64,000 nucleotides of DNA, taken from NCBI GenBank assembly GCA_964017185.1, contig OZ024883.1, positions 40,726,395 through 40,790,394 on the forward strand, given 5' to 3'. The position numbers and the translations under genes were made by a program. Source of the stretch: Rugalucina vietnamica. Its lineage: Eukaryota > Mollusca > Bivalvia > Lucinida > Lucinidae. The notes below the pieces were generated by a model, which had not been told where the DNA came from, made no database searches, and saw only the letters and a program-made list of their open reading frames with translations. Every line of letters begins with the position of its first letter. The first letter of the stretch is position 1. This document shows positions 13,953 to 52,076 of this stretch, piece after piece.

Positions 13953-13964
13953 TTTTTCACCTGG

Positions 13965-14698: not shown

Positions 14699-14854
14699 TT
14701 TCATAAGGGAATGATTAATATTTCCAATAATTTGCCAATGCTCTGGCTATTGTTTTCTGTTTTACCTGCTGTTATTTGGGGAGCTTTTTTGTTTTGATGA
14801 AAGTTGTAGGAAATTAACACCTTTCCAATTGCTTTTCCAGCCATCAAAAGACAT

Positions 14855-18227: not shown

Positions 18228-19673
18228 ACCAGAGGACCAAGGGTCCTGTAAACGCTCACCTGAGATCTGCTATATTAACCAAATATTTATTTAAAAAATT
18301 TGCCCTTTATGGGGCCCAACCAACCAGTCAAAATAAAGGATCATTAAGACAAAAGTCAACCAAACTGTACAGGACTACTCTATAAACATTTCTGCAAAAA
18401 CAGAATTTAAAAATCTGTGATTGGACCAGAAAAAATAGCCAATTTCCACTTTGCCCGTTTTAAGTCTATTGAAACTTTAAGTTGCCATAGCAACCAGATT
18501 TCTAATCCGACTGAAATAAAAAACACAAATTATGTAGAGACTACTGTCAGGAACATGTATACAAAGTACAGGCTTCATGCCGCGGTAGACAATTTCTGAG
18601 GAGAAGATTTTTAAATGTTTTTCAAAATTTTACCCTTTATGTGGCCCCAGCAACCAATCAAAATAAAGGATTAGGAAAAAAGTCACATAAAACATAGAGA
18701 TATACTCAATAAATATTTCTGCAAAGACAAAATTCAAATACCTACAATTGGTCAAGAAAAAATAGCTAATTTCCACTTTTCCCATTATAAGTCTATGGAA
18801 ACCATAGCAACCAGAGTTCTTATCTGACTGGAATAAAAAACACAAATTATGTAGAGGCTACTGTCAGGAACATGTATACAAAGTACAGGATTCATCCACT
18901 TGACAGTTTCTGAGGAGAAGATTTTTGAATGTTTTTTTTTTCTTCAAAATTTTGTCCTTTATGGGGCCCCAGCAACCAATCAAAATAAAGGATTAAGATA
19001 AAACTCACAAGAAATGTCAAACACTACTCAATAAACATTTCTGCAAAAACAAAATTCAAATGTCTGCAGTTTTAGCGGAAAAATAGCCGATTTCCACTTT
19101 TCCCATTATAAGTCTATGGAAACTAAGTTGCCATAGCAACCAGAGTTCTTATCCGCCTGAAATAAAAAACACAAATTATGTAGAGGCCACTGTCAAGAAC
19201 ATATATACAAAGTACAGGCTTAATCCCCTTGACAATTTCTGAGAAGAAGATTTTTTAATGTTTTTCGAAATTTTGCCCTATATGGGGCCCCTGCAACCAA
19301 TCAAAATAAAGGATTAGGACAAAAGTCACAAGAAACTTAGAGGACTACTCAATAAACATTTCTGCAAAAACAAAATTCAAATATCTCTAACAAGACAGCA
19401 AAAACTGGCAATTTTCACTTTTTTCCATTATAAGTCTATGGGAAGCATAAGTTACCATAGTAACCACAGTACTTATCCGATCAAAACAAAAAACACAATT
19501 ATTCTTTCCCCCTACCTGTAGATGGTGTATGTGTAATATGAGAACAATCGGCCCAGCGGTTTCAGAGAAGAAGATCTTTGAAATTGTGGACAACGACGGA
19601 CGGACGACGGATGGACGCCGGAGCATGGGTATACTATAAGCTCACCTATGAGCCTTCGGCTCAGGTGAGCTAA
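18228..19673 (-). mobile_element. AGCTCACC-type repeat with ~325-bp internal units
   Basis: It opens ACCAGAGGACCAAGGGTCCT and closes with the hairpin GAGCCTTCGGCTC...GGTGAGCTAA. Inside, about four units of 321-330 bp carry CAATCAAAATAAAGGATTA, AAGTCTATGGAAAC and CACAAATTATGTAGAGGC. The unit content differs from the copy at 9480, so the same ends carry different internal repeats. Confidence 0.75.
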
Positions 19674-19710: not shown

Positions 19711-22147
19711 ATACCCCGCCACGCAAATTTAATTTAGCAAAAATGTTTGTCAATAAATTCTCAAGATAAAGAGCAGAACAAAATTTTGTCATAAATGAAG
19801 GACCATAACTCTGTAAACATTGATAAAATTTACCCATCTTCAATCCCAAACCACTACTTCCTGATTTGAACTTTTATACAAAGTTTGAAGAAAATTGGTT
19901 GATAAATGCACAAAACAGAGGCAGGAAACGAAATTTTAATGTAAATCATGGGCCATAACTCTGTACATATTTAACGAAATTTATTCATTTTCAATCCCAA
20001 ACCATTCCTTCCTGATATGAACTCCTATACAAGGTTTGAAGAAAATCGGTCCATAAATGCTCAAGATAGAGTCCGGAAACAAAATTTTAACGTAAATCAA
20101 GGGCCATAACTCTGTACTTATTTGACAAAATTTACCCATCTTCAATCCCAAATCACTCCTTCCTGGTATGAACTCCTTTACAAAGTTTTAAGAAAATCGG
20201 TCAATAAATGCTCAAGATAGAGCCCGGAAACAACTAGAATTGTCAGAGAATCTGACTATAGCCCCGCTTCTCAGCTTTTTTGCAGGGTGAAAAAAACAAT
20301 GACAGGTAAGTATCACAAGCTAGATCTCATCAATATTGATGCGCATACAAAATTTGGTCTGATTATGTCAATTCGTTCTCAAGATATTGAGCAGAAATGA
20401 AATTCTGACCTCAATAAAGGGCCATAACTCCGTCAAAATTTTGCCAAAAATGACGGGCAACAATCCCAAGCTAGATCTTGTCAATGATGATGTGCATACA
20501 AAATTTGGACGGATTCTGTCAATTCGTTTGTAAGATATTGAGCGGAAACGAAATTCTGAAGTCAATCAAGGGCCGTAACTCCGTCAAAATTTTGCGAAAA
20601 AATGATGGGTAACAATCCCAAGCTAGATCTTGTCAATGATGACATGCATACAAAATTTGGTCGGATTCTGTCAATTCGTTCTCAAGATATTGAGCGGAAA
20701 CGAAATTCTGACGTCAATTAAGGGCCGTAACTCCGTCAAAATTTTGCGAAAAATGACGGGTAACAATCCCAAGCTAGATCTTGTCAATGATGACGTGCAT
20801 ACAAAATTTGGTCGGATACTGTCAATTCGTTCTCAAGATATTGAGCGGAAACGAAATTCTGACGTCAATTAAGGGCCGTAACTCCGTCAAAATTTTGCGA
20901 AAAATGACGGGTAACAATCCCAAGCTAGATCTTGTCAATGTTGATGTGCACACAAAATTTGGTCTGATTCTGTCAATTCGTTCTCAAGATATTGAGCGGA
21001 AACGAAATTCTGACGTCAATTATGGGCCGTAACTCCGTCAAAAGTTTGCAAAAAATGACGGGTAACAATCCCAAGCTAGATGTTGTTAATGTTGATGTGC
21101 ACACAAAATTTGGTCTGATTCTGTCAATTCGTTCTCAAGATATTGAGCGGAAACGAAATTCTGACGTCAATCAAGAGCCGTAACTCCGTCAAAATTTTGC
21201 GAAAAATGACGGGTAACAATCCCAAGCTAGATCTAGTTAATGATGATGTGCATACAAAATTTGGTCGGATTCTGTCAATTCGTTCTCAAGTTATTGAGCG
21301 GAAACGAAATTCTGACGTCAATCAAGGGCAGTAACTCTGTCAAAATTTTGCGAAAAATGATGGTCAACAATCCCAAGCTAGATCTTGTCAATGTTGTTAA
21401 TGTACATACAAAATTTGGTCAGATTCTGTCAATTTGTTCCTAAGATATTGAGCGGAAAGGAAATGTTCACGGAATGACGGAATGACAGAATCACGGAATC
21501 ACGGAACCACGGAAGGACAAGGTGAATCCAGTATAGCCCCACTTTTCCAAAGCGGGGCTATAAAAATGTAACGTAAATCAAGGGCCATAACTCTGTACAT
21601 ATTTGAAGAAATTTACCCATCTTCAATCCCAGGCCACTCCTTCCTGGTATGAACTCCTATACAAAGTTTGAAGAAAATCGGTCAATAAATGCTCAAGATA
21701 GAGCCCGGAAACAAAATTTTAACGTAAATCAAGGGCCATAACTCTGTACTTATTTGACGAAATTTACCCATCTTCAATCCCAGACCACTCCTTCATGGTA
21801 TAATCTCCTATACAAAGTTTGAAGAAAATCGGTCAATAAATACTCGAGATAGAGCCCGGAAACGAAATTTTAACGTAAATCAAGGGCCATAACTCTGTAC
21901 TTATTTGACGAAATTTACCCATCTTCAATCCCAAACCACTCCTTCCTGATATGAACTCCTATACAAAGTTTGAAGAAAATAGGTCAATGAATGCTCAAGA
22001 TAGAGCCCGGAAACGAAACGCTGACGGACGGACGGACGGACGGACAGACAGACGGACGGACGGACAGATGGACGGACGGACACTCGAACGCAAATTTTTT
22101 TTGGAGGGTATAACATAATACCCCGCACTTTTTAAGTGGCGGGGTAT
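19711..22147. mobile_element. ATACCCCGCCAC TIR element built of 151-bp units
   Basis: It starts ATACCCCGCCAC and ends GTGGCGGGGTAT. Units containing GGGCCATAACTCTGT recur at 19951, 20102, 21583, 21734 and 21885, each a 151-bp step where uninterrupted. A (GGAC)n tract (22022-22080) precedes the right end. It is split by a second element at 20233-21562. Confidence 0.8.
20233..21562. mobile_element. CTATAGCCCCGC element with 151-bp satellite, nested
   Basis: The left end CTAGAATTGTCAGAG leads to TATAGCCCCGCTT at 20258. The right end is AAGCGGGGCTATA at 21550-21562. About seven units of exactly 151 bp carry CAATCCCAAGCTAGATCTTG and GATATTGAGCGGAAACG. It interrupts the host element between GCCCGGAAACAA and GTAACGTAAATC. 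Open frames through it repeat a similar peptide but shift frame every unit because 151 is not a multiple of 3. It is not coding. Confidence 0.85.
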
Positions 22148-25990: not shown

Positions 25991-26073
25991 TGAACCGCGA
26001 TGCGAGAAAGCAGCGGTCTTCATGGGGTTCCGACCAGGTCCAACAAAAATCGGCCTGTACAGTCACAGAAGCA
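25991..26073 (-). mobile_element. GAGCCGCC-type MITE, left half, interrupted by giant element
   Basis: It begins TGAACCGCGATGCGAGAAA and runs through CCGACCAGGTCC and CGGCCTGTACAGTCACAGAA, matching the intact reverse-oriented MITE at 52077-52303. It stops at the giant element's left terminus. The remainder lies 15 kb away at 41086. Confidence 0.8.
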
Positions 26074-26084
26074 CCCTTACGAAA
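26074..26084 (+). repeat. Left TIR of giant element
   Basis: CCCTTACGAAA, matching the reverse complement of the right end at 41075-41085 (CCCTTATGAAA) at 10 of 11 positions. Looser similarity continues to AGGT. Confidence 0.75.
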
Positions 26085-26091
26085 CAGGTTT

Positions 26092-26593
26092 CTGGCAATA
26101 CACTGGTAATAAACTGGCAATACACTGGCAATAGTCTGGTAATACACTGGAGTGACTGGCAACACAATGGCAATACACTGGTGATAGGTTGTTAATAAAA
26201 ATATGACATATGGTAATATACTGGCAACAATTACCAGCTATTACCAGCTACCTGACAGACTGGTATTAGGCTGTTTACAGACTGGTAATACAATGGCAAC
26301 ACACTGGCAATATTGCCAGTCTATTGCCAGTTGCTGGTAGTAAATGCAGTTTCTTCAATCTTGTTTGCAGCTGGATACACAAGGTATTAAAAAATGAAAA
26401 ACACCTGGTAATACACTGGCAAGAAAAATCTTTTATGTTTTGACAAGATAAGCATCTGGCAACACACTGGTAACACACTGGCAAGAAATAACTTAAACTT
26501 TTGAAGATAAATTTGAGCCTGGTAACACACTGGCAAGAAATGTCTTTAACTTTTCAAGAGACTGTGTCTGGCAACACACTGGCAAGAAATGTC
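26092..26593 (+). repeat. Left subterminal array of giant element (copy 2)
   Basis: Short units of the form ACTGGYAAYAN, about 11 bp each, begin 18 bases inside the left terminus and are mixed with inverted units (TTGCCAGTCTATTGCCAG near 26311). Subterminal motif arrays in DNA transposons commonly serve as transposase sites. That role is inferred here. Confidence 0.8.
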
Positions 26594-28046
26594 TTAACAT
26601 ATGGCAAAGGTCAATAAAGGTTGGGGTTCCTGTGGGAATTACTGGTCCCTCTCACAACACTGTCAGGAAGTCCCTCCACATTCACAATGGATTCATGACC
26701 AATTTCTGAAAAAAAAAAAAAAAAAAAAATACATGTAATAATAATATGAAATGAATTATACTTACTCTGAATAACAAAGCTAATTTGGTTCATTTGATCA
26801 TAATTAAGATTATAAAACTTTCTTCATGCTCCACACAGCTGAGCATAAAATTTGGCTTGAATTTTCACTGACACTGTAAGCCTCTGCAATGACTGATTAA
26901 TTTAGTCCAAAGCCTATAACTAAGGTTATGTTGGGAACTTGGGGCGGACAGCTATTACCCTTGTAAAATCATTTCTATGGCAAGCCCCACAGAGGCAGAT
27001 TACCAGTATTTTATGCTCATTTTTTCACCACTAGCTGTTCTTGAATCAGTAGAAGAAGAATGACAATATAAATGCCACCCAATGAGTCATTGTGCACTTA
27101 ACTAAATATTTCTGAGCAAAAATACCTGACTGATAAGAAATACCTTCTAGAGCTACATGCCATGGCCCTGTGTTGTCGCACGCTCTTGTTTCTGCAGAGG
27201 TCGCCGTCTTTTAGTGGAAGGCAATTGTGACTTCTTTTCGGTTGGCGCATTTATCTGCATACTTCATAGTATGCCAGCTTTTGCATTTATCTAGAAATGA
27301 ACAAATTAAATCATACTGATGACTGCTAAAGCACGAATACAACAAAACAAGCTTGTACAATGAATGTGAATCGAGGGATTCATGTGAGGATAGCCGGATG
27401 GCTACCTTTTTGGGATACAGCTAGTCATCTTGCTTTTTCTTGCATGTTGTAACATTTTTGTGATTTTTTTAATTGTTTAGTTTTACTGCCTGGTGTCTGT
27501 GTTGGGATTTTAAATTTAATTTACCCTATTCACACGAGTGTAACATGCAGTTTTTTTGCTCAGAATGTGGTGTACAAAATTTGGTGCACATTTTGTATAA
27601 GAACACCAAATTTCAGACTTTTTCCATAGATGTACAGTCATCGGACCCTGTGCAGGTTAAAGATCCCTCGGAGGACTGCCGGGACCCATTGGATCTGAAC
27701 AGTTTACTGATGAATGATCCAAAATGAGGATTAAATCCTGGCACTTTAAGCCAGGCTATGGTGCCAGTTTTCTCCGGCCACACAGGTGTTACAAATGTTG
27801 AATTATTAATATATATTTTTTTTTGTGGGGGGAGGGTACAATTTCAGTTATATACTGGGAAACACACTTTATATTATTATTTGTGCGGGTAGGCATTTTT
27901 TGGGGGGGAGGGGGGGGGGGGGGTTGATACAGAGGCTGGGACAACATTTGGCAAAATTTCAGAGAGACCCCACCACACACACAAACCAGCCCTACTGTAC
28001 AATGTCACCAAGCTGGTGGTTTCCCCTCATAGTAAGTTCGTAAAAT

Positions 28047-28577
28047 CAGGGTCTCTATAGAAGGGGTCAAGAATCTTTGTCCTATGTTCAAAACTCTTGT
28101 ATGTCAGTTTCGTATTTACTCACCTATAAAACATACATTAAAAATTTATAATTAATGTCAATTTACCATAATTCTGTTATTAATTCTTTCATTTTTTCTA
28201 TATCAGAACATGCTAAATTATCTAGTGTACATTAATAATAGTACTATAGTTAGGTATTTATATCTGTTTTGATTTAATATGTACCACAGTGTCCATTTTC
28301 ACACTTTTTCATGCATTTTCACAATTTTCTGGAACATTGCGCAATTTATTTTGTTGAAAATTGTATGAATGTGAAGCTGATATGATGCATTGCTTATTGG
28401 AATGTATTTTATATCTTTGTTTTTTCACGATTTTTACCTTGGTGATAAATTCACTTTTGAGCAAGTTTTTTAACAACCTCTTACACTGTCCATATATATG
28501 GTACTTGACATACCTGAGTTTTTTGATTATTGGAAAAATCAATACATAGTTTCTTGACCCCTTCTATAGAGACCCTG
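28047..28577. mobile_element. hAT-like non-autonomous element (in copy 2)
   Basis: Same element as 1671-2201 with the same flanking 7-bp GTAAAAT repeats. It was carried inside the giant element rather than inserted independently. Confidence 0.8.
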
Positions 28578-28971
28578 GTAAAATTGAAGTTGCCCCACCC
28601 ACTAATCAAAACTTTTTGGACGACAGGAGCAGGCCAAAACCCTTTCACTGTTTCGGGTCGGCTCATTTTAAGCTCAACTGTCTTCATTTCATCAGACTCT
28701 TACCAGTTTGTTTAGCAAAGTACTTGTCTAGTTTCTGTTGTGACATTATGGAAATTTCTAAATTGTCGCGCGTACAAAAACTTTTTCATTTTATAGACCG
28801 GAAATAATCAATAGGCGAACTCGTTTAATTAAGAATGTAATACGTCGTTATCGGCGCAGCGTAGGCCATAGTCTGTAAACGGCGACGCTATCGAGTTGAG
28901 TCGATCAGTCTCAGGCTAAATTTAGAACTTTGTCACGGGGAAAAACATTTTGGGTTGAAATACATCGAGCA

Positions 28972-29026
<55 letters not shown>

Positions 29027-29219
29027 AAAGTAGAAAAAAAGTAGATGGCGCAAATCGGCAGACTAGACGGCGATATCGCCGGCCGTGCGATATCGCCGCC
29101 AGCTGCTTTTGAGAGCACTGAACTGTTACAAGCTTTAATTAATAAAAGGGCCGATTTTTGAGCCTGCAAATGATTTTCTCTTCGATTTTGGGTCTCAATT
29201 CTAACTTGGGTTGGCAGGC

Positions 29220-29251
<32 letters not shown>

Positions 29252-29761
29252 CGTGTGCTTAATGATTCATTACTGCTTCGATTAATGAACCGTAACTGCT
29301 CAATTAACTTCTTTATCTGGCACGTGCCGGGTGACTAAGATATAAAGTTATTTGAGTATAACTCATGACAATAGCTAAAATGGTTGATGATGAACTTCGA
29401 AATGCATACAAAGGCCAAACGAAGTGAGAAAACGTAGAAACCATTTTGTTTCCAAGCTTTTCCCTGTTTGTTACTCATTAGAATCATGGTGTTTGTATAT
29501 TTTGTACGTGCCAAGATGTTTTCTGGTTAAATTGGCCTCCATTTTGTAAGAAAGGCAACTGTTCTGTTCTGTTCGTAAATCCCACCTGTAGGAGCACCTC
29601 CTTGCGGAGTAAAAGTTAAGTCATATAAAATAAATAAGATACAAGAAGTCACACTTCACTGTCACACAAACCTTCAGAAAAAAATCACAAATGAAGTTTA
29701 CACAGTAAAATCCACTGTATATATACACTTAAAAAAAGTTATATTGACAATCACCGAGTAG

Positions 29762-30397
29762 CTAAGTCTTGGTTGAAGCCCGTTTGGCAACAACAGAGCA
29801 GGCAAATTTGTAAAAGCCCCAGTCCTTCCTTTGACAGTCTGTGCTGCAAAATCTAGTGATGTGACAGCGGGCACAGCGCTTGAGTTCAGTTCCCTCTACA
29901 GTTAGCACACACTCCTGTATCACCGAAATCGTCGTCACTGTCAATGTTGCTATTAGAAGGTAGGAAGTCCTTTAGGATGGCCTGTTCCTCATGTAAAGTA
30001 GCCGGAAGGGCAACACTCGACACCTGGCTATCAGAATGTGTGGAGCTGCTTGTCGGGCTACTAGGTTCAGATTCCACCAGCACATATTGATCGGTTCTCT
30101 TTTGATATCTGATCTCCGATGAAAGGTCCAGTTCTTTGGGAACGGATTCAGGTTCCTTAGGAACGGCTTCAGAAGTAGCACGTTTCGGTGAGGTAGCTTT
30201 TTCAGCAGCCTTCTTCTCCAGGAAACGTTGCTGTCTCTTTCGAGCACGTCGTTTGGTAACTCAGCGTTTTGTTGTTTCGTAGAGCTCCTCCTTTGACTTT
30301 TCGGCGCACCCGGACTTGAACCACTTACTGTATTTACAGTGTGCCGTTCGTTATTGCGAACGTAGAAGTACATTATCTGAACGGTAGAATAATACAA
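29762..30397 (-). pseudogene. Decayed MYND zinc-finger gene (in copy 2)
   Basis: Same reading as 3386-4021, with both frame breaks and the His-to-Tyr change present. The decay therefore happened before the element made its second copy. Confidence 0.7.
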
Positions 30398-32677
30398 GAT
30401 TTAGGTGTCCCAATTTTTTGACTTCAGTAATCACCTACTCAAAACATGGAGCAACGTTGCGTAATACATGTCATTAATAGCCTTCAGCAATCTTTGTTTA
30501 CGGTCACGTTATGGTTTATGGATAATCCCCTAGCGGGATATTGTGCATTGCTTGACTTATTTTCACAACTTTTATGGTTCACGCTTCGCGAGCAGTGAAC
30601 TGTGTTGTCAAAAATGACGATTATCACTTGTGAATACATAAGCTGTTTAGGCAGCCGATACGGTTCATACACACATTATGCTTTCTGTAAGGAAACATGA
30701 TCATTCAGTTTTTAATATGCAAAAGGTAATTAAAATTACTTCATCTCCTAGTAGCATAAAGACAAACTGCAAGGAAACGGCACCTTGGCGAATGCCTATA
30801 GGCAAACATTTTTTTCACATAGTACCACAAAGAGAAACTGTAAGAAAACGGCACCTTGGCGAAAGCCTGGCTTTTTTCTCATTCACCATTTTTGCATTAT
30901 CGGCTGGTTTCCTGCTGACAAAAATCAACATTGGAAAAACAGGTAACCAGAACCCCCCTCAGGGCGGTTTGTGGTTACCTGCATTTCCAATATTGATTTT
31001 TTAAAGCTGGGAACCAGCGAATAATGCAAAAAATGGTAAGAAAACTACACATTGGCATACAATCTCTCCTTTTTTCTTCTTTTCTCATAGTGCCATAAAC
31101 GGAAACGGTAAGAACACTTCGCCTTGACAAACGATCTTTTTTTCTTCTTCTTTTATTCTTGTACCATAAAGAGAAACTGTCAGAAAACTGCACCATGGGG
31201 GTTTCAAATCTGAGAGGAATGATAATTTGAACTGAAAATGTACAGTTTTAGTACAGCCACGATTTGTGGTGCTAATCTGCCGCGTGTTATGTATAGAAAT
31301 TGATCGAATCAGTATACGAAGATAGGATAGAACCTGTGTAGGATCGATCTTTAACCTGCACAGGGACTGTCCCTGCAAAGGGGTCCTCCAGGTAACGTCC
31401 CGATCCGAAGGACGGTGCACTGAGTCATGTCATCCCTGCAAACGACACGAAGAAAAGCGTGTGCGTACACCGATTTTTCCTCCCCGCAGACTATGATCGA
31501 ACCTGGGAGCTCTAGCACCCGAGGCCATCGCCCTAACCACTGAGCTACCCCGTTTAATAATGAAAAAATCAGTCACCTGTACTATGTACAAAGCGTGGCA
31601 TGGTGTAGAATCCTCTTTGCGTGTCTCCCCAGTCTACTGTCAGCAAGCTGGTTCTAGTTTGTTTATAATATGAGCTGATTACTGCTAGAAAAAATAGAAA
31701 CACGCAATTCAGCTCTTTCAAAAAGTCGTTCTTTGTCATATATTTTTTGTCGAAAAAAATCGTCCTGCAACTAACGCGATATATCACGCCCTCTATCGAC
31801 AGGCAGAGGCTCCAGGGAGGACAGACATGATCGACGTAATAAGACGACTGGATCAGCCGGGTTATCCTGCAACGCTGTGCGTGCTGTTGCTAGCATTTCT
31901 TATTAGCATTAATTCCAAAACAGCAACTTTGTTCAATCTCAAATGTTGATTGAATCGTCTCCTCTTAAATAGCGATTTTTTAGCCAATTTATATTGCAAA
32001 CTCGCAGCAGTAAAATGTTACCGGCCGTATGCTATGTTTCGTAGTGTTCCGCCGTTGACTTATCGACGCACCTCGTTTCAACCCCTATCTATCTATCTTT
32101 TGATTTTTTCTTCGGTCCTTTGAGACTGGGCCGAGTTGTCTTTTATGAATTGGGTCGAGTTGTCTTAATCCGAGATTTTACTGGGCAGAGTTGTCCAGGG
32201 TCGAGTTGTCTTTGGGCCGAGTTGTCCTAAACCCTACTAGATAGTAACATGACACACGTTTCATGCCTATTTTTAACATAAACAGAGAATTGTTTTTGAA
32301 TTTATTGATTTTATAAATTATGCTACCATGCAGTGGCCCATAATTGTTATTAAATTTTCATTCTGTTCTATTCTATTCTGTCGGAATATGATCGTGCATT
32401 TCCGTATAGAGTAAATACACTTTTTCAATATTGAAATTTGCCACTTTCGATAACTTTAAATGTTTTCTTTCAAAACTATTTTGTCCTATCTTTTGTTAAT
32501 TCAATCAAAAATGAGCAGTATCACAGTAGTTAGAATAATTAAGCTAAATATTTCGTGTCCGTAATAGTTCGGTAGATTCCGATGGCTTCGTACCGTGTGG
32601 CCGCGCGGCGGATGTGACGTCACAGTTCGTAGGCGCCAAAATTTGACCTGCGAGCGAGGCGTCTCCAATATGCGGTA

Positions 32678-32858
32678 ATGAAATGGACAAATAACGGTAA
32701 CAAACTCTCACCACACCATCTTAAACACGTGAAAGAACCGAAAAAAAAAACATCCTACAATGAATATGAGATTGGAGACGCAGGCCAGGCGACAGAGACC
32801 TGGAGACAGAACTTTCGAAATTTTCCAGCTTGGTGGCGGGCTTGGTGGTATGCAACTG
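32678..32858 (+). pseudogene. Captured spliced gene, exon 1 (in copy 2)
   Basis: Same as 6302-6482. Its partners in this copy are 35099-35158, 35577-35625 and 38703-39219. Confidence 0.5.
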
Positions 32859-35855
32859 GTAAGATGATTTTAAGTACAAAGTAAAGGTAGTTTGGGCCCA
32901 ACCGTTGGAAATCTTAGCAGATAAACTGCATTCCAACAGATTTATGAAATATGAGGCTTGACCTCAAAAATTATTTTCAAGTCCCCGGACTAAAAGTAAA
33001 GGTAGATATAATGCACCAGGATGGCGGGATCATGCGCGGATCCAGAAAATTTTCTCGGGCTGGGGAGGGGGGGGGGTCCAAATTCCCAGAAGGGGTCTGA
33101 CGGAAAATTTCTCAACATGGCAAAAATTATCCAAGGATAAATCTATGGCAATTCCAGAGGGGGTCCGGACCCCCTGTCGGACTGTCCCCCGATCTGGATT
33201 TGCCCATGGGGATACCCAGGGGGAATTTAATAGGCAAATTTGACAATGTGGTCTAATTCGGCTAGATTGCACTTTCTAGTCTAGATTACATTTGGCCGAT
33301 TCTGGTGAAGTAATCTAATTCCCCATCCCTAGGTCATGATGTTCTGTCTAACGCACTAGTCATTGGTAATCCCGCCCCACCCCACCCCCGGGGGAATAGT
33401 GAATCCCCGGGGACAGCTGATTGGTAAAACCATGGCTAATTTCCCCCGCTGTCCACTATCTTTTCATTTCACTGCCCTCTTTGACTATAATGCAAACACC
33501 GGATAGTTCCCCGGCACTGCCAGGGCTAAGCTTTGGTAAAAACCCCGCTCATTTCCACGCTATACCTTGCCCTGTCTGGGGGGGGGGGGGTGCCGGGGCT
33601 ACAAATGACTACAGTAGTGCTTAATTCTCAGGGGTTGGGATTTATAAATTGAAAACATTGACAGTAGTGCTTAATTCTCAGGGGTTGGGATTTATAAATT
33701 GAAAACATTGATAGGTGCATAAGCAATGATCAGGAACTGGCGTGATTAGAACCAAGTCCCAGCCTACAACCTATGTGGGAAAAACCAAATCCTGGGCTCT
33801 ATGTTCTTACTTTAAAAGCCAAAATGCACTTCTCGCTATTGCCTATTCTACCACAAGCCTGGGACAAGGTAAAAATAAAATGGTTGCTCCCGTATGTATG
33901 ACCCGGGATGTATGAATACCATTTTCTTGCACCTCAGATCGAGTTTTCTGCTCACTACTTTGAATTTTCTTTTAACTTAATTTCTGAACATCTGAAATCT
34001 GAGCATAAAATGACATTCAATTGTTTATTTAGTGGTGAAAGAACTTCTGATTTGAAACGAGCTAATTAAAGAGTTACTGATTTGAAACATTTTATTCATA
34101 ATTCTATAGCCGAGCAGTGATTGTCAGAATGACCCATCCCATACCCAGCGTTGGAACAGTCTGGAGATAGTGAATGGATCGTACGGACAGGATGACTCAC
34201 TGTGTTAATGATATAGCGGAGATCAAGTTTGAACATCCTATACCTATTAGGGTGAGTCTTGTGACAAAAATTTAAGTCTCAAAATGATGTTTAAGTCTAT
34301 TCTCCTTGAAAATAAATCTTAAAATGCATCGCCATCCTCTGACAATAAACTGTACGGGGTGGCCCCCGTGGCCGAGTGATTAAGGTCGCTGACTTCAGTG
34401 CACTTGATCATTCGATCATCTCACCTAGAGCTGTGGGTTAAATTCGCATCTCCCTCGGGGCACGAGTCACATGTGGGACAAACCAAGTTCTGCTTGCGAG
34501 CGTGTCAGGTGGTTTTTCACCGGGTACTCCGGTTTTCGACCCACCTACCGATTGATTTGTCTCGATATGAGTGAAAAAGCTTGAAAGGGACGTAAAACTG
34601 AATCCAAAAAAAAAATAAACTGTAGTCAGTAATTATTTTTTTCTATCCAAAAGAATGACAACAAATGAAATCAAATTTATTATCAAAAATACATAAAACA
34701 AATTTATGCATTCAAAACAATGTTCAGTTAAGAATTTGAAAGTCGAATCATAATGAACATGATGAAAAAATAGCAAATTATTGAAGGAAAACTAATATTA
34801 TTGTTGCAAGGGGAAAAAAGTTTTTGATTTTGAAGATCATTAATAAATTTTTTGGGTAAGGCCATTTTTCTAGGGTCGGTCGAGTATGGGGAAACAAATA
34901 AAAATTTTAATTTTGGCCTAATCATAGTATCGATTATCACTTTGGGCATCGATTAACCAGCTCTACATATGAATGTTTTTCAAGACATTGGAAATTGATA
35001 CGTAATTTATGATGTGGCTGTAAGACATTGAAAATTGATACATATGATGCGGCTGTATGTTTTGCAAACACTGGCCAATGATGATTCTCTTTTCTCAGGG
35101 CAACCAAACAAAGTAACAGCAACCGAAGTCACCCCTTTCAAGTCTTCCACAAAACTGGGTAAGTTATTCTTATTTTTTTTTTTTTTTATAAGGAGATACA
35201 ATCAGGTTCCAAGCTTCATACACAACATTACATCTTTAAGGGAAAGTACAACTTACAAAAAATCTCACAATTAAGCAAACTGAGTCAGCAATCCTTTCCC
35301 AATTAAGTAGTGACTCAGAATATAACAATTTACCAAGTTACCAACCTAACAAAATTAAAGCAATATACATAAGAGTTGATCTCAGGTCCACTTCATTACA
35401 ACTTGGTCATGCTACTGATTAGCTATCGCACCTGGTAAAGCAAGAATTCACTTAGAAAATAGTCCGACCAAGGGAATGCAGGAAAAAAAAAAAATTTATA
35501 TTTTAAAATGGGCTAACAGTCCATGCCGTCCACACTTGCATAAATTAATTTTGTTTCTGTCTCAATTTTGTTTCAGTCTCGGAGTCAGAAGAAAACAAAC
35601 AGTACTTGCAACAGAAAACTCCAAGGTAATAGCATTTTTAAACACTTGTGTGAGGGATAATATGGTGTCACTATGATTAACCCACGGATTCCCATCTAAT
35701 GAACTCTTCCATCCTTAAATATTGGTAGAGTCCATTCCTGATTTTAGGGGTGCTAGGTGTAATTCATCAGGAAAACAAGTCTGTGCAATATATACCCCCT
35801 TAAACCCCACTTTCATATAGTAAAACTGGGGTTTGCAGGGGTATACCTATTTTTT

Positions 35856-37913
35856 AGCTCACCTGAGCCGTTAGGCTCACAAGGTGAGCTTATAGGATGG
35901 CCATGATCCGGCGTCCGTCGTCCGTCCGTCCGTCCACAATTTCAAAGATCTTCTCCTCTGAAACCGCTTGGCCAATCAAAGCCAAATTTTATATGAAGCA
36001 TCAATAGGAAGGGGGAACCAATGTGTATATAAGAAATCCAGGTCACATGACCAAGATGGCCGCCATGCCCATATATGGTAAAAACCCTTCAAAAATCTTC
36101 TCCAGAACCGGTGGACCGATTTCAACGAAACTTGGCATGAAGCATCAATGGCTGAAGCACTACAATATGTATATAAATCATGTCCCTGTGATGACCTTGA
36201 CCTATTTTACAGCAAGGTCAACATAGGTCACCAATGCATTTGAATGGGGAAAGCTTTTAAAATGTCATTTAAAGTTAAAGTCTTGCAGGAAATGGGCAGT
36301 AGGACAGTAAATTAATGATTCTGAAAAAAATTGGACCCCAGGGGCTCATATGCCCCCACCCCGGGGCAATATACATATATATCTCCATAATATTCAAACA
36401 TCTTCTCCTCTGAAACCACTTGGCCAATCAAAGCCAAATTTTATGTGAAGCATCAGGGATAATTTTGGGAGGGGCCATGGGCAAAATTGCCCTTTAATTT
36501 TCAAAATGGCCCCTTCTTTTTGAAATAATGGGCCGGTTTTATAATGTAAGTAGATAGGCAATAATGATTCTAGCCGAGCATTTTTCGTGAAATGGCCCCT
36601 TTCATTTTCAAGCCAACAATATCCCTGAAGCATTAATAGGAAGGGGTAACAAATATGTAGATAAAAAATCCAGGTCACACGACCAAGATGGCCGCCATGC
36701 CCATATATGGTAAGAACCCTTCAAAAATCTTCTTCTCCAGAACCGGTTGACCGATTTCAGCGAAACTTGACATGAAGCATCGATGGCTCAAGCACTACAA
36801 TGTGTATATAAATCATGACCCTGTGATGACCTTGACCTATTTTACGGCAAGGTCAACATAGGTCGCCAATGCATTTGAATGGGGAAAACTTTTAAAATGT
36901 CATTTAAAGTGAAAGTCTTGCAGGAAATGGGAAGTAGGACTGAATATTAATGACACTGAAAAAATTGGACCCCAGGGGCTCATGTGCCCCCACCCCGGGC
37001 AGGGATTTTTTTTGGGTGTCTCAGGGGCCGAAATAAGGCCCCATTCCCAATGAGATTTAGGTGACTTTTTTCCCAATTTGGAGAAAAAAATTCCCAATCA
37101 CAGCTGAAAATAATTTACTATAGGTCAATTCATTGTGAAACTCAAGCTCTGCTGTTTGAAATGCAGTTTAAATTTGATGTTATGCTATTATTAATGATTC
37201 TAAATGCATAAGCTTGATTAACTATGTCAACTTGGAAAATATTATCAACTTTGAATATTCTGAAAATTTCCCAAATTCGGGGTTTATGTCGCTAATTTTC
37301 CCAATCAGAAAGGCCCTAGGGCCCCTTCCCAAAATTGCCAAAAAAATCCCTGCCTGGGCAATATACATGTATATTTCCATAATATTCAAACGTCTTCTCC
37401 TCCGAAACCGCTTGGCCAATCAAAGCCAAATTTTATGTCATGCATCTATAAAATTGGGGAATCAATGTGTGCATAAATAATCTAGGTCACATGACAAAGA
37501 TGGTCGCCATGCCCATATATGGTAAAAACCCATCAAAATTCTTCTTCTCTGAAGCCAATAAACTGATTTCAAGGAAACTTGGCGTGAAGCATCGATGGCT
37601 AAAGTACTCCAATGTATATATCCAATGTATATATAGATCAAGACCCTGTGATGACCTTGACCAAGTTTATGGCAAGGTCAACATGGGTTGCCTATGCATT
37701 TGAATTGGGAAAACTGTTAAAATGTCATTTGAAGGGAAATGCCAGGAGGAAATGGGCAAATGGACAGAATATTGTCTGAAGAAAGAAAATGGCCTATGGG
37801 CTTCATCTGCCCCTGCACTGGAGTTAAATACCATAATATTCAAACATGTTTATTGGTATATGCAGCAGATCTCAGGTGAGCGTTTACAGGACCATTGGTC
37901 CTCTGGTCTTATT
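35856..37913 (+). mobile_element. AGCTCACC repeat (in copy 2)
   Basis: Same as 9480-11537, carried within the giant element. Confidence 0.7.
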
Positions 37914-38702
37914 TTTGCTTCAAAACATAGATTGTGGGTACTCGTTAGAACCACCTCGCTGAGGCGGTTCTAACGGGCAAGGTGGTTCTAACGTGTACCC
38001 ACAATCTATGTTTTGAGCAAAAATAAAAAAAATATCAAGATTTTTCTGATGAAATTTTCATTTTTTACAACTAATAAAAATCTCTGTTTATTACATGGGC
38101 AAATTTTCATAATGTTTAGTTTAATTTGATTTTGAAAACACAATAAAATTTTCTTTTTAATTTGCACAGTAAAAGGCAACAGTGGGGACCCTGATCTGGG
38201 TCTGAAGAGTTCTCCAACAGCAATAGTTAAAGGCTGTTGAACAATTTCACCCATCCTCAACAAGTGGTTATAATCTATGAGCAGAAGAAATATTTTAAGT
38301 AAGTGACATTTTCACATAGATCTTAATTTCAGATCTTAAAATGCTGTTAAGTTAAATGAATTAATTATTCATAGATCTGTTTATAATACACGATATATAT
38401 ACGAGACCAGGGTCATTCTACAGAAATTCTTCCAATATATGCTCCTTGATGAGACGCATCATGAGAAAACAATGTTTTACATATGCGAAAATTAAGGTGC
38501 AGATCAGCTTCGTGATTACTGCGAAGCTGATCAGCCCCTATTTTTTCCCTACATGGATAGTACAATTCTACTTTCTATGTCCAAAACTTCCAGCCTCTAG
38601 CCATCTTTTGTGGCTGTACAGCCCATGGCTTCTATCAGACCTGGGCAGAAACCACAACATTGGTTTTCTGTTGACGCGGCTCAACTGTGTTTCATAATTC
38701 AG

Positions 38703-39219
38703 TTCTAAGAAAACGAATCCGGAAACTCGAAGAGGACGTAAAGACCCTTAAGGATGATTTAAGGAGGATGACCAAGAAGTGTAGGAGGCTGGAAGAAAAG
38801 TTCGATGAAAAGACAGCAAAAACAGAGGCCCCATGCAAGAGCGCTCAATGAACCCAAAACCACACTGTCACAATCAATCAAAGAAATAAAAGGGGAAATA
38901 CCTTTGGAAGAATTTGATGAAACGGAAACAGAATGTTTGGCTGAAAAAGACATTAATGCAATCGTCAATGACAAGACAGATCCTGTAAAGAGATTTTAAG
39001 GCCTTTGCAAGGCAATATTTACTGAAGAGGAACTTAAGTTCTGCAGCCCAACAGGAAAAACAACTACCAAGTGTGGGGAAGGCCCCCTCTAGATAGGGGC
39101 AAACTGAAACAGTTGTTTGCCATTGCTGAACAGCATTTACAATTTATGACAAGGGAATGTCCCATAAAAATTTGAGAATTTCCAAAAGGTTCTTAGACGA
39201 AAGTGAACAACTGTTTTAG
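38703..39219 (+). pseudogene. Captured gene, coiled coil plus BEN-like exon (in copy 2)
   Basis: Same as 12327-12843 with the same frame breaks, so the gene was already broken when the giant element moved. Confidence 0.5.
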
Positions 39220-40340
39220 TTTACCTTTATTAGCACTTGGTGAGTATTAGTATATATATAGGTAAGGATCCGGCGTCTGTCGTCCATCCATCTGTTCACT
39301 TATTGATTATTGTTGTTTCAAAAGTTTAGTTCTTTGAAGTTTTCATATAAAGGTAAATGCACCTATAAAGCTTGTAGTTATTTATATTGTATTACCAGTG
39401 TTAATGAAAACCAAATTATGAAACTGAACTGTACTGTTAACGCCTTAACGGTCAGAGATCTCCACAAAAACAAAAATTACATTCAAATGTTCAGTCATGT
39501 TCATCCAGATTAGTTATGTTCTCTATGAATATGTCATGAAAATCATAAGTTACAGTAAATTTTCATGAACGGCTTTCAAATGACAATGTTTTTAGCTCAC
39601 CTGAGCCTTTAGGCTCACAAGGTGAGCTTATAGGATGGCCATGATCTGTCGTCGTCCACCATTTTCAAAGATCTTCTCTGAAACCCCTTGGCCGATCAAA
39701 GCCAAATTTTATATGAAGCATCTATGGGAAGGGGGAACCAATGTGTTTATAAATAATCCAGGTCACATGACCAAGATGGCCACCACACCGATATATGGTA
39801 AAAACCCTTCAAAATTCTTCTCCAGAACCACTGGACCGATTTCAAAGAAACTTGGCATGAAGCATCGGGAACTGGAGTACTACAATGTGTTTATAAATTA
39901 TGACCTTTGGATGACCTTGACCTATTTTATGGGAAGGTCAACATAGGTCACGCATGCATTTGAATGGGGAAAATTGTTAAAATGTCATCTGAAAGGAAAA
40001 AAATTGCAGGAAATGGGCAAATGGACTGAAGATATGTGATTCTGAAAAAATCTGTAATTTGGTAGAAATTTCAATGATCAAATTGATCATACCAATGCAT
40101 TTTTTTTTCTGAAATTTTGCTGAAATACCAGTGCTATTTCACTGAAATTTCAGTGTGATTTTTGGTGAAATTTCACCGAAATTACAGTGATAAATTAGTC
40201 AATATTTTAGCAGAATTTCGGTGAAATTCTGCTGGAATTACACTGTAATTACAGTAATAATTTGGATGATATTTTAGCAGAATTTCAGTGAAATTATTTC
40301 AGTGAAATTCCACTGAAATTACAGCACCTTTTTCACCTGG

Positions 40341-41074
40341 GTGGAAACAAACTGGTAATACACAAAAGATAACTGGTAATACACTGGGAGTATACTGGAA
40401 ACAAACTGGTAATACACTGGGAGACAACTGGTAAGACACTGACAATAGACTGGTGTCAAATACTACATTCTGGTGACACTTGCAATAGACTAGAAGCAAA
40501 CTGGTAATACACTGGAATAGCTACACTGGAAGCCAGCTGGTAACATGTTGGCAATACACTGGCAATAAACCTTTATGGATTTTTATTGCCAGTGTATTGC
40601 CAGACCCCTTTAATACCAGTCTATTACCGGATATCTACCAGCCCCCAAAAAAGCTGGCAATACTATGGTAATAGGCTGGAAAATACCAAATACAGTCTAT
40701 TACCATAGTACTACCAGCCTATTGCCAGTTATCCAGCCTATTGCCAGACTGTTGCCAGACTATTGCCAGATTTTCCGCCTATTGCCAGCCTGTTGACAGT
40801 CTGTTACCAGCTAGTTATAACTAAAATATATTTTTTGGAAAGATAAAAAACCTCAAGTTTTATCAACGACAGTCTATTACCAGTGTATTGCCAGCATATA
40901 ACCAGCATCATCCAACCCTGGCAATAAACTGGTACATAACTGGCAACACTCTGGTAACAAGCTGGCAATCTGGTAATCATCTGACAATAATGTGGTAATA
41001 CACTGGCAACAGATTGGCAATAAACTGGTAATAGACTGGTAATGGACTTGCAATGGACTGGTAATACACCTAAT
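40341..41074 (+). repeat. Right subterminal array (copy 2)
   Basis: Same sequence as 13965-14698 at offset 26376. It ends eleven bases before the right terminus. Confidence 0.85.
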
Positions 41075-41085
41075 TTTCATAAGGG
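41075..41085 (-). repeat. Right TIR of giant element
   Basis: TTTCATAAGGG. Copy 1 has the same terminus at 14699-14709. Beyond this point the two copies diverge completely, which fixes the boundary. Confidence 0.75.
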
Positions 41086-41230
41086 CAGGCTTGAAATTTT
41101 GGCTATAAGTAGAAGAGGAATTGTACTATCCGAGTAGTGAAAACAAAGGTGCTGATCAGCTGTGCAGTTACAGTTACTGCACAGCTGATCTGCGCCTTTG
41201 TTTTCACATATGCAAAAATCTGGTTTTCTC
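41086..41230 (-). mobile_element. GAGCCGCC-type MITE, right half
   Basis: It starts CAGGCTTGAAATTTTGGC and continues with TTGTACTATCCGAGTAG, the GATCAGCTGTGCAG hairpin and TTTGTTTTCACATATGC. This is the exact continuation of the half ending at 26073. The outer terminus is degraded after GGTTTTCTC. Confidence 0.8.
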
Positions 41231-42016: not shown

Positions 42017-43580
42017 CTAGAATTGTCAGAGGATCTGACTATAGCCCCGCTTCTGAGCTTTTTGCTAGGGAGAGACAAACAATGATGGGCAACAATGCCA
42101 AGTTAGATCTTGTTAATGTTGATGCACATAAAAAGATTAATCAGATTCTGACAATTTGTTCTCAAGGTATTGAGCAGAAACAAAATTCTGACATCAATCA
42201 AGGGCCAAAACTCTGTTAAGATTTTGCAAAAAATGACTGGCAACAATCCCAAGCTAGATCTTGTCAATGTTGATGTGCATACAAAATTTGGTCAGATTCT
42301 GTCAATTCATTCTCAATACATTGAGTGGAATCTATATTCTGACGTCAATCAAGGGCTGTTACTCCGTCAAAATTTTGCGAAAAATGACAGGCAATGTTGC
42401 TAAGCTAGATCATGTCAATGTTGATGTGCATATAAAATTTGGTCAGATTCTATCAATTTGTTCTCGAGATATTGAGCGGAAACAAAATTCTGACGTCAAT
42501 CAAGGCCCATAACTGCGTAAAAATTTTGCGAAAAATGACAGGCAAAAATCCCAAGCTAGATCTTAACAATGTTGATGCGCATATTAATTTTGGTCAGATT
42601 CTGTCAATTTGTTCTCGAGATATTGAGCGGAAACAAAATTCTGACGTCAATCAAGGGCCGTAACTTTTGTCAAAATGCTATGAAAAATGACAGGCAACAA
42701 TCCCAAGCTAGATCTTGTCAATGTTAATGTGCATACAAAATTTGGTCAGATTCTGTCAATCGGCTTTCAAGATATTGAGCGGAAACGAAATTCTGACGTC
42801 AATCAAGGGCCATAACTCAGTCAAAATTTTGCGAAAAATGACAGGCGACAATCCCAAGCTAGATCATGTCAATGTTGATGTGCATACAAAATTTGGTCAG
42901 ATTCTGTCAATACGTTCTCGAGATATTAAGTGGAAACGAAATACTGAAGTCAATCAAGGACCGTAACTCTGTCAAAATTTGGCCAAAAATGACGGGCAAC
43001 TATCCCAAGCTAGATCTTGTCAATGTTGATATGCACACAAAATTTGGTCAGATTCTGTCAATTTGTTCTCAAGATATTGAGCGGAAACGAAATTCTGACA
43101 TCAATCAAGGGCCATAACTGAGTCCAAATTTTGCGAAAAATGACGGGCAACAATCTCAAGCTAGATCATGTCAATGTTGATGTGTCTATAAAATTTGGTC
43201 CGATTATATCAATTTGTTCTCGAATTATTGAGCGGAAACGAAATTCTGACGTCAATCAAGGGCCATAACTCCGTCCAAATTTTGCGAAAAATGACGGGCA
43301 ACGATCTCAAGCTAGATCATGTAAATGTTGATGTGCATATAAAATTTGGTCAGATTCTATCAATTTGTTGTCGAGATATTGAGCGGAAACGAAATTCTGA
43401 TGTCAATCAAGGGCCGTAACTCTGTCAAACTGATGCCAAAATGACAGGCAACAATCTCAAGCTAGATCATGTCAATGTTGATGTGCATATAAAATTTGGT
43501 CAGATTCTATCAATTTGTTCTCGAGATATTGAGCGGAAACGAAATTCTGACGTCAATCAAGGGCCATAACTCCGTCAAAA
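42017..43580. mobile_element. CTATAGCCCCGC element with 151-bp satellite, right end missing
   Basis: It opens CTAGAATTGTCAGAGGATCT and TATAGCCCCGCTT as at 20233. About ten units follow with CAAGCTAGATC and GATATTGAGCGGAAAC, mostly at a 151-bp step. It stops after CCATAACTCCGTCAAAATT with no GGGGCTATA terminus, so it is truncated. Confidence 0.8.
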
Positions 43581-44047
43581 TTACATCAGGTGTTAACATG
43601 TATGTTACCATGGCAACAATTTTAATTGAACGGGTACCCATTTTTCAGTCACGTTTTTAAATTGCCTGGCAACTTGCCAAGAATTTAAGATCAAAGTTAT
43701 GATCAACAAAACATTATTTTCTTTTAGAAATTTTACTTTATAACATAACAAGACAAGAATTGTTTTGCAATATAATTAAAATTCATGTTTCTATCCCCCA
43801 AATTCACTTAAGAACTTGCATTTTTTCACTTTAGGAACTCATTTATGACCACTGAATGTACATCGATTCAAGGAGGGAATAAGCTCTCACTAGGATTTTG
43901 AGAGCAAGATTCTAAGAATACTTCACTGGAAAAAAGTTGGAGTCAGAAATGAAAACTTGGAGTTTGACCATGAAAACTTGGAGTTTTACCCTTAATAATA
44001 TATTTCAATTTTTTTTTCAACAAGGATTCCACTGAAAATTTGCTCAT

Positions 44048-49050: not shown

Positions 49051-49670
49051 GGGTGACTAAATCACAGTAAACTGTAATGGAACAACTTTTTACACATAAG
49101 ATGGGTGGCCTGCTCGATCAGTTACAAATGATTAATGCATTACAGCCCATTAGCATATTTGCTTGCTATGGTAATGTTCTCTCTTACAAGAAGACCTTCA
49201 TGAGAAGGGAGTAAGAAAATTACAGCCCCGTCTGCCCCCATGAGCTAAAATACATTGCTTTGAGCCCCACTTTTTCCCCCTTTTTTCTTCTCAATCAATC
49301 TTACTCATACTGCAATCATGGTGGTCTGCGTATCTTTTACAACAAACATGTAATTTTTTCTAACTATATGGCGTAATTTGACAAGCAGTTTCTCTGACTC
49401 TTGCATTTTTTCTTGAAGGAAAGAGACAATATTATTAATACATGTCATTTCACTTTGAAATGTGTTTATTTTTATTTTGAAATAAATGTGTTTAACAGAT
49501 TTAGATGGTGAATTAGTGCAATGGGATCAGAAGAAAATTAACTTCTTGTAGAATTGGAGGAAAGAAAACTTTTTTTTTTTTTTTATGGGTTCCCCAGCTC
49601 ATCCAGAAATGTGTCCATTTTGCTATCAGAAGTGAAGCTAGCATCACTGCAAAGTGCAATGCTTATTTAT

Positions 49671-50050
49671 GTTACATCTACACTGGGCCACGTTCTCATC
49701 ACGTCCTTACCTTGTCCTAATAATTCAAGAACGTAGCGAGGACGGGGTCAAAATGAAATAATTTCTGGTTTGTAAGTTCATACTACGTCCTCGCTACGTC
49801 CCCACTACATCCTTACTATGTCCGCATCACGTCCTTACTACGTCCTTCACGTTTCCACTAGGTTCTTACTACACACTCACCAAGCTCATCCCGTTTATAC
49901 TACGCCCTTACAACATCCTCGCGAAGACCAAGCAGTTCACGCCACGCGCTTACTACGTTTTCAGCACGTTCTAACTGTTTATGCATTATAATAATTGTGC
50001 TCAGTTGAAGAATCCATCCTCAACGCTGCTAATAATCTGTTGAAACCTTT

Positions 50051-50106
<56 letters not shown>

Positions 50107-50880
50107 TATCATCATCATCATTTTCATAGCTCATAGCTAGGGGCGCACCCAGCAATAACTTATCCTATTCTGCAAGTGCACCGGGTAAGTTTTTTGGTGT
50201 TATTGAAGGAGAGCGAATTGCAAGAGTACTTCTCAGTTCCTTTTTCATTTCAACTCAACTCAATTTTCTTTGCAAATCATATAACATATAACATTTCAAA
50301 ATGATTGACGCAAAAGCTATTGCTTCAGGGGACGAGTCAATTAAAACGAAAATAATAAAACGGGGAGGACGTGATAAGAACCTGGCGTGAACGTGGTAAG
50401 AACCTACAGAGGAAGAGCTGGGAACCGCAAGGACGTGATATGAACGCAGTGAAGTCTTCTAGGTCATGGTATGGACGTACTAGAAGCGTGGTAGGGTCTT
50501 ATCGAGAACCTGATGGACGCAGCGCGGAGGTAGTGAAGATGTAGTGAGGTCTTGATGGTCTGCAACAGGTTCGTATACCACAACCATGAAGACCTTACTA
50601 CGTTTGCACTACATTCTTACTACATCCTACAAGTTCCTACTACGTCCTTACCACGTCTTTACTACGTCGTTACTGTGTTCTAATTCCATCCCGTCCTTGC
50701 CACGTTTCTTTTGTGCATGTTCAAAATTTGACCAAGACCTTCCTGTCCATCAAGACCTCGCTTTGTCCTTACTACTTTCCTCCCACGTCCTACAAGACCG
50801 TACCACGTTCTTACCGCGTCCTTAATTTTTTTAGGACGTAGTAAGGACGTGGTGAGAACGTGGTCCAGTGTAGACGTAAC
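49671..50880. mobile_element. TIR element with 11-bp-period arms
   Basis: It begins GTTACATCTACACTGGGCCA and ends with the near-complement ending GTCCAGTGTAGACGTAAC; the TIR is over 40 bp. Each arm is a run of 11-bp units such as CTTACTACGTC and CCCACTACATC, pointing opposite ways. The middle holds a (CAT)n tract at 50051-50120. There is no transposase, so it is non-autonomous. Confidence 0.8.
50051..50120 (+). repeat. (CAT)n microsatellite
   Basis: About 22 CAT/ATC triplets with one T interruption, in the centre of the 11-bp-arm element. Confidence 0.9.
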
Positions 50881-52076
50881 ATTAGCAATATTCAGTTCTT
50901 AGGGACTATTTGGTCATAAAAATACATGTATGTCAAAATGGCAATTCTTCCTTTACTGATCATTCACGGCTTGAGGGCAGTTGACTGTTAAAGGTTATAG
51001 AATGTGCACTTAATACAATCTGCCTCCAAGAGGTTAACCTCAGAAAAGCTGACCATCCCCATAAAAATTCAGCTATTTATTGGTAGACATAAAACATCAA
51101 ATTTCAGTAATACCAAGCAATATTATACATCTTATCTGCTGCTCTACTCATTTAATGGACAATATTTTTTCTCAGAAACATGTAACTGCATGAGGCACAT
51201 GAAAGAGGCAGGTTTATCATTATAGAAGGAGGTTATCTCTTTGATAGAAGAATGCAATGACAATAAAATACATAGGGGGTTGGTTGCGCAATTATTATTT
51301 TTACAATTTTATATCAGCTCTGCATGTATGAAAAATATTTTGTTTGTCACATCCATAAGAGCTGTTCCAAAGCATTTTACAAAAGACCCTTTTTATTTTC
51401 TTTAAATTTCCTCATAATTCAAACATTGAAACACTATGATAATTGCTGGCTGGGTTGGTCTAAATAAATAACTAATAGTATACTTTATTCCCTAAGTGAG
51501 AACTGATGCCATGTTATAGGGTAGAAATTGGCTTCATTTGGTAATTTGGTTATTTCCCCATAGAACTTTCAGGATTTCTATTTTTACAATTTTCTATTTT
51601 CAAACTATTAGAACAATTACTACATCAAGTATTATGTATGAAAAAAAAAGAAAAAAAAATACAAGAGAAACATGCCAGCAATTCCACCAATTCCAGAGAG
51701 AATTTACATTATGTTAATTCATCCCCCTCCCTCTAGCCATCTTTCTGTCTAAAATGATAGAAAACAGATAATTTGCCTTTCTTTTAATTATCATTCAGTT
51801 TTGAAGGCTTTTTACTCTCCTCAGAAGAAATCCTGATTTTTATATATTTTGACAAATTAAATGCAGAAATCTGCAATACAGCCATGTTTGTTTGGGGTTT
51901 TTTTAGCAGTCTTTTTTTTACATGCAACTGATTTTTTTCAATCCTCTCCATATAGCCATCCTCTTTGGCTCTAAAGGCTAATGTTTGCTGGACCTCATTG
52001 GCGACACCAAAGACAATTTTTCTCGCTCAATCTGCTTAACTCTAGAAATTATTCCCCTGCTTCCAACCTTCAAATA
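50881..52076. other. AT-rich DNA, nothing recognised
   Basis: No repeat ends or convincing exons were seen. A short minus-strand frame near 52000-52040 (VKQIEREKLSLVSPMRSSK after TTCTAG) is too weak to call. Confidence 0.4.

Follow-up and report, generated by a model that had tools for sequence, protein, structure and literature searches.

CACTA/EnSpm transposons are marked by dense subterminal repeats. The ends of piggyBac elements start with CCC, piggyBac and Kolobok elements both duplicate a 4-bp TTAA target, and Tc1/mariner elements duplicate TA. Target duplications measure 8 bp in hAT, 9 bp in Mutator and 6 bp in Maverick/Polinton elements, and Helitrons have neither inverted ends nor a duplication. 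In the passages of the published accounts that bear on the present case, CMCT elements are given 2-5-bp duplications and mostly CA..TG ends, Plavaka types TGT or CATCA ends, Harbinger-related elements duplications of 0, 2 or 3 bp, and hAT elements again 8 bp (PMC12730594). The corresponding passages describe an AT duplication within A/AT/T for ISL2EU (PMC4482050), CACTA families of 16-20 kb in a red alga (PMC6431247), and plant Pack-TYPE elements, which contain gene pieces, make local hops and may acquire DNA when neighbours move jointly (PMC8903248). Here we describe an element of 15,012 bp present as two identical copies in a 64,000-nucleotide stretch of the bivalve Rugalucina vietnamica (the window, C15:40726395-40790394, in a genome of 1.09 Gb on 47 contigs). 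Most probably it is a large non-autonomous terminal inverted repeat (TIR) transposon that is moved in trans by a transposase and often hops locally. It would then offer a young and clear example of a non-autonomous transposon of very large size that has taken broken gene pieces to about forty sites.

Two identical copies in different surroundings

Are the two copies insertions, or one tract of chromosome duplicated? A preliminary description of the window had claimed two ~14.7-kb blocks matching at a fixed offset, and self-comparison of the window gives 100% identity across the 14,709 bases of 1-14709 and 26377-41085. It had also placed the start of copy 1 outside the window, about 303 bases before it. 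CCCTTACGAAA lies at exactly that distance upstream of window position 1, and with the sequence left of the window included both copies agree at all 15,012 positions. They are separated by 26 kb and their flanks are unrelated. No homology meets the junctions in the 1-kb flanks of copies 1 and 2, and the left-flank homology past the element end, for which the description had said to look, is absent there. The upstream flanks share two short matches only (22 bases, E 0.12; 11 bases, E 0.43), and the downstream flanks share an inverted match between the repeat split by copy 2 and its other copy at about 14867-15004, plus short matches.

The complementary ends attributed to copy 2 are an 11-bp inverted repeat with one mismatch, CCCTTACGAAA / TTTCATAAGGG. 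Next to them the motif CTGGYAAY is concentrated, with 42 occurrences in the two terminal 700-base stretches against 4 in the 13,612 bases of the interior. Copy 2 had been said to sit inside a miniature inverted-repeat transposable element (MITE) with CA at both junctions. CA is found on both sides. When the flanks of copy 2 are rejoined, seven further copies of the repeat align with them through the joint, and one of these lies inside the element itself. The joint falls in a stretch that varies by about 7-8 bases in length among the repeat copies; the repeat copies therefore give no proof of a 2-bp duplication, and that proof is supplied by the statistics of the 39 complete copies across the genome.

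The family, its target sites and its probable local movement

The two-copy transposon of the preliminary description stands as a transposon with two identical copies at this place; it is not confined to them, and its family numbers about 42 copies, of which 39 are complete and three are represented by unpaired ends. The genome search that had been proposed, for CCCTTAYGAAA with the 11-bp array, finds 40 left ends. Written as CCCTTAYGAAA followed within 30 bases by CTGGYAAYA, the left-end pattern gives 72 matches at 40 separate places, the same 40 that a query with the left 500 bases returns, and 0 in the reversed control. The matching pattern for the right end gives 40 rows, of which 39 are right ends and one (C7:44997778) is a chance match. 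Two further right ends, C3:9862448 with a changed tip and C2:35118500, appear with the 500-base query only and bring the total to 41; these 500-base searches scored 40 of 45 candidates for the right end and 40 of 88 for the left. The 39 complete copies lie on 16 contigs and are 13,700-24,187 bp long, with a median of 15,012; 38 were paired from the 500-base searches and the 39th, C1:19627788-19651824, from the end patterns. Among the unpaired ends, the left end C2:15857375 is followed by interior matches and the right end C8:48672274 is preceded by a BEN-like match. The right end C2:35118500, which has no interior match in the MYND, BEN-like and interior-DNA searches, may be a truncated or short copy.

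Does insertion duplicate the target? The 2 bp on either side match in 24 of the 39 complete copies, compared with a mean of 6.5 and a maximum of 16 in 2000 shuffles of the flanks. The count is 23 of 38 without C3:9862448, where the changed right tip makes the boundary, and with it the TA duplication, uncertain. None of the 39 copies has matching flanks at 4 bp or at any greater length up to 11 bp. TA is the commonest duplicated dinucleotide (11), followed by AT (4), AA, TC and GA (2 each) and CA, TT and TG (1 each). Insertion, as had been claimed, is favoured jointly by the same exact ends, the different flanks, the interrupted target repeat and the 39 complete copies, of which 24 have a 2-bp duplication; tandem duplication is ruled out by the number of complete copies, their common ends and their different flanks. 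Complete identity over 15 kb is also what a segmental duplication or a misassembly would give in place of transposition. Such an origin is scarcely credible here, given that all 39 complete copies break off at these same inverted ends, that the flanks differ, and that the assembly retains differences between other close copies (6/1999).

The absence of any difference in 15,012 positions agrees with the very recent mobility proposed for the element. At an assumed 1-8e-9 substitutions per site per year, the hop in the window is no older than about 12,000-100,000 years (95% bound). We compared the inner 2 kb for 20 of the 40 left ends and 20 of the 41 right ends. The window copies show 0/2000 differences at both ends, and the next nearest to them are the copies C14 39.8 (2/1982, right) and C16 26.5 (3/1982 right, 10/1986 left). 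The matches of the window copies and of these two are unbroken across 32890-32993, which is missing from the matches listed for most other copies; the match of the pair C6 52.32/52.49 likewise crosses it, at 90%. The members of that C6 pair have equal scores in the interior DNA searches of the genome, which scored 40 of 2447 and 40 of 2196 candidates. Two further sister pairs are C16 37.569/37.592 (6/1999 differences, 22 kb apart) and C7 7.26/8.00 (0/2000, 734 kb apart). Four pairs among the 42 copies are no more than 100 kb apart, where 0.15 would be expected and 2000 shuffles give at most 2, under a chance model of uniform placement in which the length of C13 and the start points of two partial copies are guesses. 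The identical window copies look like the outcome of a very recent short-range jump, and sister copies of this kind record hop distances.

Table 1. Positions of the element, its parts and its target repeat (window coordinates)
Feature	Position	Strand	Remarks
Copy 1, visible part	1-14709	+	whole copy C15:40726092-40741103, its first 303 bases outside the window
Copy 2	26074-41085	+	15,012 bp, identical to copy 1; self-comparison of the window
Left inverted end, copy 2	26074-26084	+	CCCTTACGAAA
Right inverted end, copy 2	41075-41085	+	TTTCATAAGGG
Right inverted end, copy 1	14699-14709	+	TTTCATAAGGG
Left subterminal zone, CTGGYAAY motifs	26092-26575		partly 11-bp spaced; 18 in first 700 bases, both strands counted
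Right subterminal zone, CTGGYAAY motifs	40352-41065		both orientations; 24 in last 700 bases
Left CA of target-site duplication, copy 2	26072-26073		
Right CA of target-site duplication, copy 2	41086-41087		
Left part of split MITE-like repeat	25991-26073		outer limit from preliminary description
Right part of split MITE-like repeat	41086-41230		outer limit from preliminary description; palindromic core 41137-41207
MITE-like family copy inside element	38463-38624	-	
MYND-finger open reading frame piece	29798-30260	-	copy 1: 3422-3884; frame change just before finger
BEN-like exon piece	38772-39172	+	copy 1: 12396-12796; broken here by stop and frame change
Dispersed repeat, internal copy	35851-36329		others near 36626-36999, 37353-37773, 39589-40050

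Movement, class and the search for a partner

How would such an element move? Its transposon anatomy follows from the exact inverted ends, the dense motifs, the 2-bp duplication in 24 of 39 copies, the unrelated flanks, the number of complete copies, a mosaic interior and the lack of a Pfam transposase in the window copy. On this model a transposase made elsewhere would bind the CTGGYAAY motifs near both ends and cut at the CCC/GGG tips. The element would then be joined to an AT-leaning target with a 2-bp stagger, the gaps being filled by host repair. Copy number could rise by the usual cut-and-paste routes, either because the sister strand serves as template for repairing the donor site or because the element moves during replication. 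We infer the motif binding, the source in trans and the cut-and-paste chemistry as steps of this scheme. Hops that are often short would account for two identical copies 26 kb apart.

Several observations weigh against a non-autonomous, locally hopping element. Fifteen of the 39 complete copies, copy 1 included, lack matching 2 bp, with tips that read as in the window. None of the 39 is a short internally deleted copy, which is unusual for a cut-and-paste family. We found no autonomous partner with matching ends in genome searches with exact and looser end patterns or among the motif-pair matches listed (100 of 187). Pairs within 1 and 2.5 Mb number 8 and 13 against 1.6 and 3.8 expected, values equalled by the highest shuffle. 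Finally, the copies C15 42.067/42.087 lie close together and are not mutual nearest relatives at the right end among those compared, which means that closeness is not always a direct hop.

What of the copies without a duplication? AA had been predicted in front of copy 1; TA stands there instead and AA follows the copy, so that copy 1 has no 2-bp duplication. Two of the 15 have a 3-bp match (TTA, CTA), and 11 of the 15 share exactly one base of the two (shuffle P 0.023, a post hoc observation). Two further readings were rejected. Insertion from a circle carrying donor coupling bases was set aside because, by eye, no flank dinucleotide is common to both members of any of the four sister pairs (window, C16, C7, C6). 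Chimaeric copies formed by exchange between insertions are not in clear excess: among these 15 copies there is one swap-compatible pair (C4 23.1, C17 19.80) against 0.53 expected.

The class of the element was judged against published descriptions, as far as the relevant passages extend. With CACTA/EnSpm (CMC, CMCT) it shares large size, dense subterminal repeats and duplication length, in that 24 of 39 copies at 2 bp and two at 3 bp fall within the 2-5 bp of CMCT; it differs in having CCCTTA..TAAGGG rather than 5'-CA..TG ends. Pfam sees no transposase of the CACTA type, a DDE enzyme with C(2)C and H(3-4)H motifs, in copy 2, and a partner elsewhere may encode one. Judged by its sequence, the element is CACTA-like in duplication size and not in its ends. 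Like Pack-TYPE elements it is probably non-autonomous, holds gene pieces (here MYND and BEN-like) and no Pfam transposase inside inverted ends, and would often hop locally. Those elements, as described in plants, have ends in common with a known autonomous superfamily; for the present element the exact and looser end patterns and the motif-pair matches listed (100 of 187) show no such partner. Its AT-leaning targets recall the PHIS group (Harbinger, ISL2EU, Spy), in which 0-, 2- and 3-bp duplications occur, but AT makes up only 4 of its 24 duplications, in contrast to ISL2EU as described. The initial CCC is that of piggyBac, but 0 of 39 copies match at the 4 bp of piggyBac and Kolobok. TA is the commonest duplication (11/24), as for Tc1/mariner, but 13 of 24 are other dinucleotides. 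The 39 copies have no flank match of any size between 4 and 11 bp, unlike hAT, Mutator and Maverick/Polinton, and inverted ends with 2-bp duplications set the element apart from Helitrons. A virus-like or Maverick element was likewise rejected: the duplication length is wrong and Pfam finds no such genes in the window copy. The ends fit none of the end sets in the passages describing CMCT, Plavaka, Harbinger-related, ISL2EU and Pack-TYPE elements, and for this reason we assign no superfamily and class the element as a non-autonomous TIR transposon with captured gene pieces. Why would a cut-and-paste family keep a 15-kb cargo and often leave mismatched duplications? A tentative and rather doubtful answer is a transposase lineage not yet described, with CCCTTAYGAAA ends, a loose and often mismatched 2-bp duplication and a mechanism that preserves 15-kb cargo instead of shedding short derivatives.

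The ends, the motif and the coordinates provide a handle for seeking the transposase. Exact-end patterns return only the family and one chance row. The looser end pattern gives 78 matches against 6 in the reversed control; it adds C3:43679424 and C6:41880318, where CCCTTACCAAA stands with the family's motif, and another three rows, C3:31802714, C8:39685773 and C12:18326675, that resemble chance matches. With the motif pair by itself there are 187 matches and 0 in the control, and among the first 100, from C1 to part of C9, those outside the family are at the same C3 and C6 loci. The resemblance between these two loci (L105:53-1507, L106:1-1400), 92.7%, extends to either side of the end-like point, which argues that no element boundary lies there. 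With up to 3 mismatches the CCCTTACCAAA end occurs 58 times, fewer than the control (117), and its exact form occurs only at these two loci. Both adjoin an exon reading HGMADIIVG..NNAIIEVKT, for which Pfam gives no convincing match and which we take to be reminiscent of PD-(D/E)XK nucleases.

The interior, rival origins and neighbouring repeats

Five copies were read whole (the window copy, C4:23125930, C9:10813686, C1:19627788 and C7:3643496). They have one core in common, with 0.8-1.4% substitutions between pairs over 12.9-13.25 kb aligned. The 24-kb copies hold nested insertions, including open reading frames (ORFs) of reverse-transcriptase type by reading of the ORFs, without a family search. 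Retroelement-like ORFs are nested in the C9 copy (L095:311-3145) and the C1 copy (L098:4520-7306), and in the C1 copy the frame passes from the MYND finger directly into the retroelement.

The gene fragments reported in the preliminary description correspond to MYND and BEN-like pieces. Pfam scans of all six frames of 26300-40801 in copy 2 detect no transposase, C(2)C and H(3-4)H motifs not having been searched for, and the sole convincing domain is the MYND finger on the minus strand (E 2.4e-6). A frame change precedes the finger in all four copies inspected (window, C4, C9, C1). In a genome search with the MYND ORF (150 of 203 candidates scored), the part before the finger is open over nearly its whole length in at least 24 family copies and is split, shortened or stopped in the other listed copies; this ORF family also occurs at many other places outside the element, some with open frames of 200-322 residues. 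A relative at L104:4619-5458, an open frame of 279 residues ending in a good MYND finger, is perhaps a member of a transposon-borne ORF family.

The BEN match comes from the C9 form of the exon, at E 1.4e-4 and 22.4 bits, just below the Pfam cut-off of 23.2; Pfam reports no BEN in the window copy's own frames. In C9 and C7 the exon is open; in C4, C1 and the window copies it has a stop or a frame shift. Across the genome, with all 69 candidates scored, 12 copies are open over 137 residues, 3 have one or two stops and the others are shortened, shifted or stopped.

Could these frames be the element's own, with a transposase split by introns or too divergent for Pfam and a full interior kept because it is needed? 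Such an autonomous element would fit the lengths of the complete copies, all at least 13.7 kb, the common core of those read whole, and a search with exact and looser end patterns that found no shorter derivative with these tips in the genome (changed-tip copies would escape it). It would fit the long open MYND frames too, and for the BEN-like exon the genome offers one remnant outside the family (C14:18669019, 71% of 41 residues) and no clear second source. We nevertheless consider it unlikely, in view of the six frames of the window copy without a Pfam transposase, a BEN-like frame broken in three of the five copies read whole and in others across the genome, a frame change before the MYND finger wherever inspected, and a MYND ORF family with many copies outside the element.

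In the passages of the Pack-TYPE account that concern DNA gain, a macrotransposon route is proposed (PMC8903248), and here it would mean that host DNA lay between two small elements with such ends, whose outer ends then moved jointly. The mosaic interior is in keeping with it. Nonetheless, the place and orientation expected for an inner end show no remnant when up to 2 mismatches are allowed, the one near match (CCCTTGTAAAA at element position 885) is oriented as an outer left end, and the exact and looser end patterns turned up no small elements with ends of exactly this kind, all of which makes this origin very unlikely. One block of the interior does have a counterpart: C16:16100-17660 (L109, L110), near the start of C16, is colinear with it at about 88-93%. 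Two stretches of C16, 10900-11899 and 25600-26399, contain no element ends, and the locus is absent from the MYND matches listed. On its sequence it would be either the source of that interior block or an old remnant.

Other repeats lie in the window. Downstream of both copies are arrays of a 151-bp tandem repeat (19749-22018 and 42076-43582), about 85-92% alike, and 18290-19502 is a tandem array with a 321-bp unit. The stretch 49669-50882 has 11-bp-spaced ACTACGTCCTT units and their reverse, in arrays at 49782-49846 and 50593-50674, and its two sides form an inverted match of 55 bases (87%). It is built like the ends of the present element with a different motif, and perhaps represents a second family of the same architecture.

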